From Firmicutes bacterium FC7 (GTDB lineage Bacteria; Bacillota; Clostridia; Tissierellales; Tissierellaceae): a DNA stretch of 64,000 nucleotides. How positions within the stretch are numbered: position 1 is the first letter of the stretch; every line of letters begins with the position of its first letter. Made by a program: the position numbers and the translations under genes. Below the pieces are notes generated by a model that was not told the DNA's origin, searched no databases, and saw only the letters and a list, made by a program, of their open reading frames with translations. Positions 39,820 through 45,119 of the stretch are shown here, piece after piece. Location of the stretch: NCBI GenBank assembly GCA_022760735.1, contig JAKELU010000004.1, forward strand, positions 80,583-144,582. The letters run 5' to 3'.

Positions 39820-41208
39820 ATGAAATATGATGTAATTATTATAGGGGCTGGGCCTTGTGGAATATTTACAGCACTAGAAATGAAGAAAGCTAATTCTGAT
39901 ACTTCAATTCTACTACTTGAAAAGGGAAATTCCATTAAAAAGAGAATTTGCCCAAAAAGAAAAACCGGTGTATGTGTTGGCTGTAAGCCATGTAATATAA
40001 CAACAGGTTTTGCTGGTGCGGGAGCTTATTCTGATGGCAAATTATCTCTATCGCCTGATGTCGGTGGCAATCTTCCACAGTACTTAGGATATGAAGAAAC
40101 CCAAAGACTTATAAATTACGTTGATGATATATATTTACAATTTGGTGCAGACGAAACTATATATGGTGTTGATAAGAAGGAAGAAATTAGAAATATAAGA
40201 AGAAAAGCAATTAATGCAAACCTAAAATTGGTAGAATGTCCTATTAGACATATGGGGACCGAAGAAGGTTACAATATTTATTCCAGAATCCAGGAGTACT
40301 TGGAAGATCTTGGAGTAGAAATGAAGTTCAGAAACCCAGTAAAGGACATAATTGTGGATGAAAATAACACAATCAAAGGTGTAATAGCTGACAAAGAGTA
40401 TTTCTCAGATAAAGTTGTTTTAGCAGTAGGTCGTGAAGGCTCAGACTGGTTAAAAGACATATGTACTAAGCATAATATCCTAACTACTACTGGTGATGTA
40501 GATATAGGTGTTAGAGTAGAAACTAGAAATGAAATAATGGAAGAATTAAACAATGCCATGTATGAAAGCAAGCTAATTTATTATAGTGATACCTTCGATG
40601 ATAAGGTTAGAACCTTCTGCTCAAATCCAGGTGGAGAAGTTTCAACTGAATATTATGAAGGAAATCTTGCTGTTGTTAATGGTCATAGCTATAAATCAGA
40701 AGAATTAAAATCTGATAATACAAATTTTGCAATTTTAGTAACTAAGCACTTTACTAAACCATTTAACTCTCCTATTGAATATGGTATGCATATTGCACAA
40801 CTTGGGAATATGCTATCAGGAAATAAAGTATTAGTTCAAAGATATGGTGACTTTAAGAGAGGAAGAAGAACTACTGAAGAGAGACTAATGAGAAACAACA
40901 TAATACCTACCCTTAAAGATGCAGTTCCAGGAGATTTGAGCCTAGTTTTACCATATAGAATATTAAAGAGTATTGATGAGATGATAATTGCCCATGACCA
41001 AGTAACTCCAGGTCTAGCAAGTGATGAAACGTTGCTTTACGGTGTAGAGGTTAAGTTCTACTCTAACAAGGTCATTGTAGATAATAACTTCCAAACAAAT
41101 ATTAAAGGATTGTATGTTGGAGGAGACGGAGCTGGCCTTACAAGAGGTTTAATGCAGGCCAGTGTAAATGGACTAGTTTTGGCTAATATTCTAATAAATG
41201 GAAAATAA
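39820..41208 (+). CDS. FAD-dependent dehydrogenase of the COG2509 type
   Basis: A 462-residue flavoprotein. The N-terminal Rossmann motif is DVIIIGAGPCGIFTALE (4-20). Near 50 is a Cys-rich segment CPKRKTGVCVGCKPC, then FAGAGAYSDGKL. A second FAD-contact motif GLYVGGDGAGLTRGLMQA lies near the C-terminus. The family has no agreed substrate; it looks like a redox enzyme of the HI0933/ubiquinone-type fold. It has an AAGGAGG site and stands alone before the ABC exporter region. Confidence 0.82.
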   Translation: MKYDVIIIGAGPCGIFTALEMKKANSDTSILLLEKGNSIKKRICPKRKTGVCVGCKPCNITTGFAGAGAYSDGKLSLSPDVGGNLPQYLGYEETQRLINYVDDIYLQFGADETIYGVDKKEEIRNIRRKAINANLKLVECPIRHMGTEEGYNIYSRIQEYLEDLGVEMKFRNPVKDIIVDENNTIKGVIADKEYFSDKVVLAVGREGSDWLKDICTKHNILTTTGDVDIGVRVETRNEIMEELNNAMYESKLIYYSDTFDDKVRTFCSNPGGEVSTEYYEGNLAVVNGHSYKSEELKSDNTNFAILVTKHFTKPFNSPIEYGMHIAQLGNMLSGNKVLVQRYGDFKRGRRTTEERLMRNNIIPTLKDAVPGDLSLVLPYRILKSIDEMIIAHDQVTPGLASDETLLYGVEVKFYSNKVIVDNNFQTNIKGLYVGGDGAGLTRGLMQASVNGLVLANILINGK

Positions 41209-41211
41209 TTG

Positions 41212-41240
41212 TTGACAAATAAAAATAAACTTAATAAAAT
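41212..41240 (+). promoter_or_regulatory. Strong sigma-A promoter of the leader/ABC exporter operon
   Basis: TTGACA (41212-41217), 17 bases, TAAAAT (41235-41240). It starts only 4 bp after the stop codon of the flavoprotein gene and drives the leader ORF. Confidence 0.8.
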
Positions 41241-41274
41241 TAAAGTGTTGAATATTAAAAAGGAGGTCGTGAGA

Positions 41275-41349
41275 ATGTTAATGAATAATAAATTTAGATT
41301 AAGTTATGTTATAAATAATGATTCACGGCCTATGATTAATGTTCAATAA
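41275..41349 (+). CDS. 24-codon leader peptide of the ABC exporter operon
   Basis: A short ORF with AGGAGG (41261-41266) 8 bases before the ATG. The peptide ends NDSRPMINVQ. Its last codons (CCT ATG ATT AAT GTT CAA TAA) lie in the 5' arm of a hairpin that would compete with the terminator downstream. In Bacillus subtilis the bmrCD exporter is controlled by a translated leader (bmrB) in a comparable way; this peptide is shorter and is proposed as a functional analogue, not a homologue. Antibiotics that stall ribosomes would be the natural trigger. Confidence 0.7.
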   Translation: MLMNNKFRLSYVINNDSRPMINVQ

Positions 41350-41472
41350 ATAAGCTAAACATTACCATAGGCTCATACTGCCTATGGTTTTCGTCTCTTT
41401 TTTCTATACGCTAAAATTGACTATATTTTTATACTATATAAAACCATAGGTGTTTAAACCTATGGTTTTTTT
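41328..41472 (+). promoter_or_regulatory. Attenuator with an antiterminator and two tandem terminators
   Basis: Three structures use related arms. Antiterminator: GCCTATG (41328-41334) with CATAGGC (41366-41372), plus AATGTT (41338-41343) with AACATT (41358-41363). Terminator 1: ACCATAGGC (41364-41372) with GCCTATGGT (41380-41388), then a T-rich tract. Terminator 2: AAACCATAGGT (41441-41451) with ACCTATGGTTT (41458-41468), then a T7 run. The antiterminator and terminator 1 share CATAGGC, so only one can form. Confidence 0.7.
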
Positions 41473-41496
41473 ATTATGTTGACAGGAGGGGATATT

Positions 41497-43290
41497 GTGA
41501 AGGAGTTTAAAAAATTGTTGCAATTTGCAGATGGTTATAAGCTAATGTACCTACTTGGAATGATATCTATTATAATATCACAGGTCTTTAACACAATTGG
41601 ACCATTGATTATAAGCAATACTATTGATTCCATTGTTGGAAATAAACCAATAACATCTAACTTTTTTCAATTATTAGTGAATGTTATAGGCGGAAGAGAA
41701 TTTCTAGCTGCAAATTTATGGATTATGGGAATTATAATTGTTTTAAATACTGGATTAAGGGGTGTTTTCTTATATTTGAAGAATACTTTATCAAGTAAGT
41801 CTTCTGAGAATATTGCAATGAGAATAAGAAATAAGCTTTATGATCATATTCAAAGACTGCCATATGAATATCATGTAAAGGCAGACACTGGTGAACTAAT
41901 TCAAAAATGTACTTCAGATGTAGAAACAATAAGAAAATTTTTAGCCATACAGCTAGTTGAAGTAGCAGGTTCATTGTTTATGCTATTCTTTATTCTTTAT
42001 ATAATGTTGACACTAAACAAAACTATGGTGCTTATATCCTTTATTTTGGTACCTTTCATATTTAGCTTTGCGTTTATATTTTTTAAAAGAGTTCAAAGGG
42101 ATTTTGAAAAGGCAGATGAATCTGAAGCTAAACTATCGACTACACTTCAAGAAAATCTGACTGGCATAAGAGTTGTTAAGGCATTTGCAAGAGAAAAATA
42201 TGAAATGGATAAATTCAAATTAAGAAATACTGACTATAGAAATAAGGTCAATAAGTTAATTATAAATCTTGCAATGTACTGGTCAATTTCAGATTTCTTT
42301 AGCATTATCCAGGTAGCCCTTGTAGTAATCCTTGGAAGCTATTTTGTAATCTTAGATAAAATGTCTCTAGGAACTTTGATAGCGTTTGTGAGCTATGTGA
42401 ATATGATGATTTGGCCTATACGACAGATGGGAAGAACCCTTACAGACATGGGCAAGGCCACTGTATCAATAAAAAGAATAGATGAAATATTGGTAGAACC
42501 TATAGAAATATTAAAGGTAACTGGCGAAACTCCTAAGATTAATGGAAATATAGAATTTAATAGTGTGTCATTCAGCTATGATGATGGTATTCCGGTATTA
42601 AAGGGTATTTCCTTTAGTGTGAAGGCTGGTGAAACTATAGCTATTATAGGCTCAACAGGATCTGGTAAAAGTTCCTTGGTTCATCTTTTACCAAGATTAT
42701 ACGAGTATGATAGTGGTTCTATAAAAATAGATGGAATGGAGTTAAACACAATAGACAAATATTGGATTAGAAAAAATGTCGGTCTTGTGCTTCAAGAACC
42801 ATTTCTATATGCCAAGACAATTAAGGAGAATATTAAATTATCCGATCCATCAATGGCTGATGAAAGGGTATTTGAAGCTGCAAAGATAGCATCTATACAT
42901 GATGATATAATTTCCTTTGAAAATCAGTATGAAACCCTAGTTGGTGAAAGAGGCGTTTCCTTATCAGGAGGCCAAAAACAAAGAATGGCTATAGCTAGAA
43001 CAATAATAAATGAGTGCCCTATAGTTATATTTGATGACTCTCTTTCAGCAGTAGATACTGAAACAGATCTAGCAATTAGAAAATCCTTAAATTCAAGAAA
43101 GAATAAAGCAACAACAATCATTATTTCACACAGAATTTCTACTGTTTCTGAAGCAGATAAAATTCTAGTAATGGATAAAGGAAAAATAGTTCAAAGTGGT
43201 ACTCACGATGAACTGATAAATGAAGAAGGACTTTATAAGCGTATATATACAATTCAATCTTCTTTCGAGGAAGATGTAGAATTTGAATAG
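41497..43290 (+). CDS. Heterodimeric ABC exporter subunit, BmrC-like (degenerate site)
   Basis: A 597-residue fusion of six membrane helices and an ATPase domain. Walker A is GSTGSGKSS and the signature is LSGGQKQR. Walker B is IVIFDDSLSAVD, with Asp where the catalytic Glu would be, so its own site should be hydrolysis-deficient, as in BmrC or TM287. The start is GTG at 41497 after AGGAGGGG; an in-frame ATG at 41476 is too close to the terminator and lacks a ribosome site. It pairs with the next gene. Confidence 0.9.
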   Translation: MKEFKKLLQFADGYKLMYLLGMISIIISQVFNTIGPLIISNTIDSIVGNKPITSNFFQLLVNVIGGREFLAANLWIMGIIIVLNTGLRGVFLYLKNTLSSKSSENIAMRIRNKLYDHIQRLPYEYHVKADTGELIQKCTSDVETIRKFLAIQLVEVAGSLFMLFFILYIMLTLNKTMVLISFILVPFIFSFAFIFFKRVQRDFEKADESEAKLSTTLQENLTGIRVVKAFAREKYEMDKFKLRNTDYRNKVNKLIINLAMYWSISDFFSIIQVALVVILGSYFVILDKMSLGTLIAFVSYVNMMIWPIRQMGRTLTDMGKATVSIKRIDEILVEPIEILKVTGETPKINGNIEFNSVSFSYDDGIPVLKGISFSVKAGETIAIIGSTGSGKSSLVHLLPRLYEYDSGSIKIDGMELNTIDKYWIRKNVGLVLQEPFLYAKTIKENIKLSDPSMADERVFEAAKIASIHDDIISFENQYETLVGERGVSLSGGQKQRMAIARTIINECPIVIFDDSLSAVDTETDLAIRKSLNSRKNKATTIIISHRISTVSEADKILVMDKGKIVQSGTHDELINEEGLYKRIYTIQSSFEEDVEFE

Positions 43291-43301
43291 GCGGTGATAA
43301 C

Positions 43302-45119
43302 ATGGAACAGAATGAAAAAATAAATTATAGTATGAACCTAAACATATGGAAGGATTTTTTTAAGCTATTAAAACCCTATAAAGTAGATTTTATTAAACTA
43401 ACTACACTAAACGTATCACTTGGTATATTAGATAGCTCCTTTCCTATGTTCTCAAAATATGCCATAGATAACTTTGTTGCTAAAAAAAGCCTAGATGGAC
43501 TTGGAGTATATATTGCATTATATTTATTGGCAATAATTCTTATAAGTATTGTAATTTATGGTTTTATTGTCATGGCTGGAAAATTAGAAACAAAGATGGC
43601 TTATGATATAAGAGAAAAGGGCTTTAGAAAGCTTCAGGAACTTCCACTCTCCTTTTACGATAATAAGGCTGTTGGTTGGTTGTTGGCAAGAATGACTTCT
43701 GATATCAGTAGGTTATCTGAGACCATTTCCTGGGGTCTAGTAGATTTTTCCTGGGGACTAACTATGATGATAGGAGTAACAATCTACATGGTATTTTTAA
43801 ATTGGAAATTAGCATTGATAACTTTATCAGTAATTCCAATTTTAGCCGTAATAAGCGTATATTTTCAAAAGAAAATACTTATCGCACAAAGAGGCGTGAG
43901 GAAGATAAACTCACAAATTACTGGAGCTTATAATGAAGATATTCAAGGTGCAAAGACTACTAAAACACTTGTTAGAGAAGACATAAACCTTGAAGAGTTT
44001 TCAGCCCTAACAAATTCCCTAAAGGAAAAAGCAATTAGGGCTACAATTCTTTCTTCAATATATCTGCCTCTTGTTATAGGATTAGGCAGTGTTGGCACAG
44101 CTTTGGCCATTACCTTTGGTGGGAAATTTATAATGCTGGAGATAATATCCTATGGTACTTTAGTTGCATTTATATCCTATACTGCACAGTTCTTTGAACC
44201 TGTTAGACAGATGGCAGTTATCTTTGCTGAAGTACAAGCAGCACAGGCTTCTGCTGAGAGGGTATTTTCACTCCTTAATGAAGAGGTTACTATTCAAGAT
44301 AGTGAAGAAGTAATTGGAAAATATGGTGACATATTTAATCCTAAGAGGGAAAATTGGCCAGAAGTTATAGGCAAGGTTGAATTCAAGAACGTATCCTTCT
44401 CCTATAATAATGGAGAACAGGTACTGGACAATTTTAATTTAAGTGTAGAACCAGGCCAGACAGTAGCATTAGTAGGAGAAACTGGCTCTGGAAAATCAAC
44501 AATAGTAAACTTGTTCTGTAGGTTTTATGAGCCTACGAGTGGCGAGATTTTAATAGATGGAAAGAATTACAAAGAAATGCCTCAGACTTGGATTCATGAA
44601 AATTTAGGTTACGTCCTTCAATCTCCTCATCTTTTTAGCGGCACCATAAGCGAAAATATAAGATACGGTAAACTTGATGCTACTGATGATGAAATTGTAG
44701 AAGCAGCAAAGTTGGTAGATGCTCATGACTTTATAATGAATATGGAAAAGGGATATGATACAGAAGTAGGTGAAGGTGGTAGTCTTCTATCTACAGGACA
44801 AAAGCAGCTAATTTCCTTTGCTAGGGCAATTATTAGAAAGCCAAAGCTTTTCGTACTAGATGAAGCTACTTCTTCTATTGATACTGAAACTGAAAAAATA
44901 ATACAAGATGCAATACAGAAGGTATTAGAAGGAAGGACTAGTTTTGTCATAGCTCATAGACTTTCTACCATAAAAAATGCGGATAAAATATTAGTTATTA
45001 GAGATGGTAAGATAACTGAAGCAGGAAATCATAAAGAACTAATTAAGAAAAAGGGTTATTACTATAACCTATATACCAATCAGTTTATAGATGAACAGAG
45101 CAAGAATGTTCTAGGTTAA
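43302..45119 (+). CDS. Heterodimeric ABC exporter subunit, BmrD-like (catalytic site)
   Basis: A 605-residue ABC exporter half. It has six membrane helices, an insertion before the ATPase domain (NPKRENWPEVIG), Walker A GETGSGKST and Walker B LFVLDEATSSID with the catalytic Glu. The signature is LSTGQKQ, a change from LSGGQ that matches the degenerate site of heterodimers. Together the two subunits make one active and one silent ATP site. Family members expel drugs and peptides. It is 11 bp after its partner. Confidence 0.9.
   Translation: MEQNEKINYSMNLNIWKDFFKLLKPYKVDFIKLTTLNVSLGILDSSFPMFSKYAIDNFVAKKSLDGLGVYIALYLLAIILISIVIYGFIVMAGKLETKMAYDIREKGFRKLQELPLSFYDNKAVGWLLARMTSDISRLSETISWGLVDFSWGLTMMIGVTIYMVFLNWKLALITLSVIPILAVISVYFQKKILIAQRGVRKINSQITGAYNEDIQGAKTTKTLVREDINLEEFSALTNSLKEKAIRATILSSIYLPLVIGLGSVGTALAITFGGKFIMLEIISYGTLVAFISYTAQFFEPVRQMAVIFAEVQAAQASAERVFSLLNEEVTIQDSEEVIGKYGDIFNPKRENWPEVIGKVEFKNVSFSYNNGEQVLDNFNLSVEPGQTVALVGETGSGKSTIVNLFCRFYEPTSGEILIDGKNYKEMPQTWIHENLGYVLQSPHLFSGTISENIRYGKLDATDDEIVEAAKLVDAHDFIMNMEKGYDTEVGEGGSLLSTGQKQLISFARAIIRKPKLFVLDEATSSIDTETEKIIQDAIQKVLEGRTSFVIAHRLSTIKNADKILVIRDGKITEAGNHKELIKKKGYYYNLYTNQFIDEQSKNVLG

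Follow-up and report, generated by a model that had tools for sequence, protein, structure and literature searches.

A conserved, probably translation-sensing attenuator with two look-alike terminators upstream of an ABC exporter, and a possible relay between them

In the window (the whole stretch of 64,000 nucleotides of DNA analysed here), two genes for an ABC exporter are preceded by a short open reading frame (ORF) and by two terminators with a common CCATAGG/CCTATGG core, with 57 nt between the cores. This arrangement raises the question of how one leader could govern two terminators in series. A preliminary description of the locus named a strong promoter, a 24-codon ORF with a good ribosome site, antiterminator arms in the final leader codons that compete with terminator 1 for CATAGGC, and a second terminator with the same core and a T7 run. 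We located each of these parts. The features are given below, with arms numbered from 1 to 6 and a pairing between two arms written with a colon.

41212-41240, + strand: promoter TTGACA-17-TAAAAT, 11/12 consensus matches
41247-41273, + strand: arm 1, the RNA 5' end (41247-41258) and the Shine-Dalgarno (SD) region (41264-41273), partner of arm 2; from the MFE fold and covariation of the SD-region part
41260-41266, + strand: leader SD, AAGGAGG
41275-41349, + strand: leader ORF MLMNNKFRLSYVINNDSRPMINVQ, 24 codons and a stop (ATG at 41275, stop at 41347-41349)
41322-41347, + strand: arm 2, the final leader codons, partner of arm 1 or arm 3; from the fold and covariation
41358-41372, + strand: arm 3, the 5' side of terminator 1 and its flank, partner of arm 2 or arm 4
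41364-41388, + strand: terminator 1 (3:4); from a terminator scan and covariation
41380-41391, + strand: arm 4, the 3' side of terminator 1 and the first T residues, complementary to arm 5
41440-41469, + strand: terminator 2 (5:6), followed by T7 (41466-41472); arm 5 is 41440-41451
41484-41491, + strand: exporter SD AGGAGGGG, not part of terminator 2
41497-43290, + strand: ABC exporter subunit A, with Asp for Glu after Walker B (VIFDDS)
43302-45119, + strand: ABC exporter subunit B, with the signature altered to LSTGQ and Glu after Walker B (VLDE)

The gene upstream of the element ends at 41208 and appears FAD-dependent from weak matches that fall short of the curated cut-offs. GTG 41497, behind AGGAGGGG, is the most likely exporter start, rather than the automatically called ATG 41476. 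Both subunits gave their best E-values to ABCB1 proteins, and their matches among bacterial half-transporters were TM287/288 (TM288 is 3qf4_B) and TmrAB (6raf); subunit B matched YheH/BmrD (7m33_D) with an E-value of 4.9e-100. Judging from motifs read in the sequence, the two half-transporters have one degenerate ATP site, as in the BmrCD/TM287-288 type, and the Asp of subunit A together with the signature of subunit B follows the pattern of asymmetric heterodimers. The motifs and matches agree with the earlier assignment of the regulated genes as a drug-type heterodimeric exporter, here a half-transporter pair of the ABCB/TM287-288 type.

The region folds at -63 kcal/mol, compared with a mean of -37.5 kcal/mol (sd 4.6) for 200 shuffles (z = -5.58). 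In the MFE fold, 22-23 bp join the RNA 5' end and the leader SD region to the final leader codons (1:2). The competing antiterminator (2:3) consists of GCCTATG (41328-41334) with CATAGGC (41366-41372) and TAATGTT (41337-41343) with AACATTA (41358-41364). Two pairings were absent from the preliminary description, namely 1:2 and that of the 3' arm of terminator 1 with the 5' arm of terminator 2 (4:5). In a simple scan of 5.5 kb, promoter-like and terminator-like sites were not more numerous than in shuffles. Therefore, the significance of the element rests on its fold and its conservation. A search of Rfam 15 at the gathering score found no family at the element, the sole match in the window being a tRNA. 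The U-tract of terminator 1 is short and interrupted (TTTTCG), and terminator 2 therefore looks the stronger of the two in the window. Terminator 2 (41440-41469) has A/T runs on both flanks; it also drew a minus-strand terminator call, and it may act in both directions.

The exporter is present in 44 of 60 related genomes, and the leader was recognised upstream of it in 37 of the 44 loci. In the others, its status was uncertain in two (L137 and L147), it was not seen in four (L028, L031, L148, and L149), and the upstream region was cut off in one (L033). Conservation of the ORF and arms in relatives, which had been set beforehand as a test, was thus confirmed. Of 69 related leaders, 57 have a promoter-like site (at least 9/12 matches) no more than 90 nt before the SD. 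Five of 82 loci yielded no leader, eight of 77 leaders were removed as near-duplicates, and one of 75 class-level genomes (G440) was left out, with its exporter at a contig edge. Some genomes in the same family as the window genome have leaders identical to those on contigs named Tissierellales and Tissierellaceae (L038 and L039 compared with L023 and L024). The window genome holds a single copy of the element, with one exact match to the SD arm.

An exact sequence pattern recovered 18 of 249 genomes in the order but not the window, in which arm 2 is CGGCCT; therefore, a covariance model (R1) was built. In the order, 61 of 249 genomes matched R1, and in the class 32 of 391 did (E 0.001); the phylum gave 14 of 398 (E 0.0001). 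These scans were run with strict filters, their weak matches may be chance, and the 41 sequences from which the model was built match by construction. The double terminator, which had seemed unusual, is instead common in this family. The sequence pattern also occurs in 12 viral contigs, all of which were judged chance, the rest of the element being absent. One plasmid record carries the exporter, at 46% identity and unannotated. On one contig of genome G238, the leader and exporter start occur twice, in opposite orientations (L123 and L136).

In 41 aligned sequences, the 1:2 and 3:4 pairings have standard pairs in 92.7% of cells and two-sided changes at 9 of 17 pairs, a count matched by none of 500 shuffles, which ignore the relatedness of the sequences. 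Compensatory changes include GGCCATGA with TATGGCC in L022 and L025, and GGTTGCGA with TCGCAACC in L032. For 2:3, whose counts were lowered by rows in which the aligner placed arm 2 wrongly (e.g., L140), 87.8% of cells pair, the covariation score was reached by 3 of 500 shuffles, and the count of cells altered on both sides was reached by 1 of 500. In 2:3, two-sided pairs were no more numerous than in shuffles (253 of 500 reach the count). For 1:2, 2:3, and 4:5, the arms of one locus also pair better with each other than with arms swapped in from other loci (0/5000 each), the own 1:2 value being favoured because the leader start had been chosen for the best duplex. The 1:2, 3:4, and, more weakly, 2:3 pairings covary, and the leader codons have in 2:3 the alternative pairing with the 5' arm of a terminator that characterises an attenuator.

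Another mark of an attenuator, a translated leader ORF before the terminator, is predicted from the SD frame. The arm-2 motif CG[AG]CC occurs in 44 of 69 loci, and in all 44 the SD frame is open through arm 2 with a stop at most 45 nt after it, as against 1 and 2 loci for the other frames; this test did not demand that arm 2 lie inside the ORF, though an ORF rule had still guided the choice of leaders. The leader has 24 codons in the window and a median of 26 in the 69 loci (range 21-67). No run of regulatory codons for one amino acid, as in trp/his-type leaders, is shared among the leader peptides compared. The 1:2 pairing holds the SD of the leader itself. The CCT of arm 2 precedes the stop codon by a median of 15 nt (quartiles 15 and 18) and, given this spacing, would be covered by a ribosome at the stop codon.

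We propose that the element is a transcription attenuator controlled by the ribosome, its six arms forming a chain, and we give this explanation as a whole, attenuator and relay together, a probability of about 0.6. In the OFF state, 1:2, 3:4, and 5:6 would be formed and RNA polymerase would stop. During normal translation, a ribosome at the leader stop codon would cover arm 2 and terminator 1 would form; with no ribosome, 1:2 would close and terminator 1 would form as well. An early stall, for example by a translation inhibitor, would leave the ribosome over arm 1 and arm 2 free. Arm 2 would then pair with arm 3 and open terminator 1, and the freed arm 4 would pair with the emerging arm 5, opening terminator 2 and thereby inducing transcription of the exporter. 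In erm(A)-type leaders, arms in series likewise re-pair one after another after a stall, but they act on translation of the main gene, whereas the arms in the window would act on terminators. The conserved ORF and arms and the covarying pairs support the logic of ribosome-mediated attenuation put forward earlier. We consider it highly probable that the element is a translation-sensing attenuator in kind, and sensing of translation is the most likely function of the conserved part.

Folding calculations bear on where such a stall might act. In the model, a ribosome on codons 1-3 blocks 1:2, and with a ribosome on codon 3 the antiterminator 2:3 reaches P 1.00 at the point where arm 3 is newly complete. 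With a ribosome on codon 6, 2:3 lacks P 1.00 since 1:2 forms, and ribosomes on codons 4-12 still permit 1:2. The model favours stalls in the first few leader codons. When 2:3 is held, 4:5 has P 1.00 until the 3' arm of terminator 2 emerges. At full length, both terminators win in 19/19 cases run, those with a stalled ribosome included. Because the full-length RNA prefers the terminators, the switch would have to be kinetic.

The relay step, by which one early stall would open both terminators, has in our estimate slightly better than even odds, and it was assessed in three sets of loci. Set 1 comprises 60 two-terminator loci, or 54 after removal of six near-duplicates, with terminators called by script and six loci entered by hand. 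Set 2 (copies fetched later, including exporter loci) and set 3 (from the phylum scan) were entered by hand from script output and were not thinned, L255/L256 and L257/L258 being alike. The mean 4:5 energy is -15.35 kcal/mol, compared with -6.38 kcal/mol for arm 4 with 18 unrelated terminators of the window, and 4:5 lies beyond the 5th percentile of this control in 50 of 54 loci. Terminators 1 and 2 usually retain matching cores where the core changes. Cores altered together include CCACAGG in both terminators of L137 and the 3' arms CCGCGG in L043 and CCTGCGG in L144; exceptions are L147, in which the cores are unlike, and L118, which pairs better at 3:6.

If mere likeness were at work, 3:6 should equal 4:5. 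In set 1, 4:5 is stronger than 3:6 in 28 loci, weaker in 19, and tied in 7 (p 0.008 by locus), and in set 2 it is stronger in 22, weaker in 6, and tied in 1 of 29 steps (p 0.0008). In the three sets pooled, 4:5 exceeds 3:6 in 54 and falls below it in 29 of 92 steps (sign test p 0.008). This excess speaks against a single bmrB-like switch in which terminator 2 is a separate, leaky backstop, similar to terminator 1 by duplication or gene conversion and unpaired with it. Such a one-switch arrangement, which we regard as unlikely, agrees with the bias being not significant by family (p 0.12 in set 1, with 11/18 families in favour) and absent in set 3 (4 stronger, 4 weaker, and 1 tied of 9; p 0.82), and with the existence of single-terminator versions (e.g., L183, L184, L186, and L187). 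Families f39, f8, and f9 have a reversed bias, with means of +2.2, +2.6, and +3.0 kcal/mol. The 3:6 pairing likewise fits better than swapped partners (0/5000), which the one-switch arrangement would also explain; because both 4:5 and 3:6 beat swapped arms, part of the signal reflects shared ancestry. However, the excess of 4:5 over 3:6 is itself larger for own than for swapped partners (75/5000 in set 1, 6/5000 in set 2, and 1/5000 in sets 1 and 2 pooled). In L159, L165, and L168, moreover, AACC/AAACC before terminator 2 fits arm 4 and lies outside the called stem of terminator 2, and a strong second terminator would need a release of its own. The repeated core had been taken as a duplicated gate. 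The duplication of the core is seen, but the relay through 4:5 fits better than a plain duplicated gate.

It is very improbable that arm 2 pairs with the 5' arm of either terminator, so that the repeated core would provide two chances of antitermination. The arm 2 of the window does match the core of terminator 2 as well (2:5, -10.1 kcal/mol); over 53 loci, however, 2:5 was at chance level, being no better than swapped (717/5000), and was weaker than 4:5 in 47 loci and stronger in 3. An arrest peptide, whose Arg-Pro-Met end would stall the ribosome on a specific compound, was set aside as similarly improbable. In its favour, 34/44 loci have Pro in frame at arm 2. The other 10/44 use a different frame for this RNA (34, 8, and 2 by frame), so that the peptide sequence at this point is not the conserved feature, and a ribosome held at that point would cover arm 2 and favour terminator 1.

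The proposed attenuator with its relay has partial counterparts among known systems. In the bmrBCD operon of Bacillus subtilis, ribosome-mediated attenuation controls an ABC exporter and is induced by ribosome-targeting antibiotics; as summarised in PMC4191407, it shares with the window a translated leader and a terminator and antiterminator before a heterodimeric multidrug ABC exporter, whereas the 53-residue BmrB, a terminator inside the coding region, and promoter control by AbrB are its own. Compared by description, the window element differs in its 24 codons and in two core-matched terminators after the stop codon. In five relatives (L034, L035, L036, L138, and L141), the stretch from terminator 2 to the exporter contains additional short ORFs that have SD-like sites. 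Several of these ORFs end in ..EYG, ..ESG, or ..ETG, and they recall the cryptic ORF that has been reported within the bmrCD mRNA. The uORF-controlled attenuation of cplR in Clostridioides difficile, which is induced by retapamulin and lincomycin, resembles the window element in the 5' hairpin hiding the upstream ORF, the alternating terminator and antiterminator, and the clostridial host, while its three-codon uORF (MRI), its one terminator that also hides the main SD, and its ABC-F gene set it apart (PMC10201436). With 24 codons and an exporter downstream, the window does not have the 3-4 codon uORF before an ABC-F gene of the ARE-ABCF (cplR-type) class. The layout of two adjacent intrinsic terminators behind a leader peptide is that of erm(K), a likeness of layout; in erm(K) the two terminators are described as adjacent and Rho-independent, and the gene encodes an rRNA methylase, in contrast to the exporter here (PMC4335068). 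The tlrB case is described in PMC6851288.

In the literature on tandem or double-terminator leader peptides and clostridial cases, no description of the element or of a terminator relay was found at title/abstract level, which weakly supports novelty of both. The relay has moderate support and would be the new, testable part of a well-conserved attenuator. If true, it would let one stalled ribosome open several serial terminators, giving low leak while keeping inducibility. The element, present in 61/249 genomes of the order and without an Rfam family at the window, flags uncharacterised genes, including arrays of ~30-codon ORFs, as likely translation-stress responders.

Copies found with R1 lie before other kinds of genes as well. 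These include MFS transporters (L251, L273, and L315), an EamA transporter (L265, with L266 and L268 looking alike by inspection), GNAT acetyltransferases (L252, L258, L278, and L303), an M16 peptidase (L282), an ABC ATPase (L308), and further ABC exporters (L259, L276, L277, L281, L288, and L304). In some copies, the first ORF of at least 110 codons is hundreds of bases away, so that its control by the element is only possible; such ORFs encode an M29 peptidase (L249 and L272), a TldD-like protein (L257), a SpoU methylase (L256), and SLFN_AlbA proteins (L280, L283, L284, and L286). Four terminators stand in a row in L249 and L263, and three in L255, L257, L258, and L256, the first of those in L256 having been added by hand.

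Small ORFs of ~30 codons follow the multi-terminator copies, and many end like GLEEYKKLELRK. They stand in tandem in L249:483-845, L254:597-828, L255:554-1357, L256:375-692, L263:740-1288, and L279:499-594, and also in L257 and L258, with chains of two to four terminators ahead of them. Five of these ORFs searched against NCBIfam, four of them also against Pfam, gave no accepted match, one hit lying far below the cut-off. As a guess, they may encode small peptides that are perhaps toxic or, like yrzI/spyTA, targets of a ribosome nuclease. The B. subtilis yrzI (spyTA) and bmrCD mRNAs are both reported to rise when tRNA maturation fails (PMC10100781, in summary), and both are listed as Rae1 candidates (PMC10632193; the yrzI operon is also cited in PMC12320835). 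ORFs of the YrzI family (PF09501) lie behind two look-alike terminators in two copies of the element, at L309:282-416 (+) and L313:2419-2556 (-), which links the element to the yrzI operon of B. subtilis.

A broader view, which we put forward only tentatively and consider doubtful as a whole, is that the relay is modular, so that a single stall would open between one and four look-alike terminators one after another, the 3' arm released from each disabling its successor. The element would then act as a switch of general use in translation stress, shared by several lineages within the phylum. It would serve exporters, acetyltransferases, peptidases, and arrays of tiny peptides that are possibly toxic, and its chains would be longer where leak is more costly. 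A sub-type marked by GTCACGGG/GTCATGG-type terminators is seen in five copies (L280, L283, L284, L285, and L286). An SLFN_AlbA gene lies further downstream in all of these except L285, with ORFs of ~60-95 codons between.
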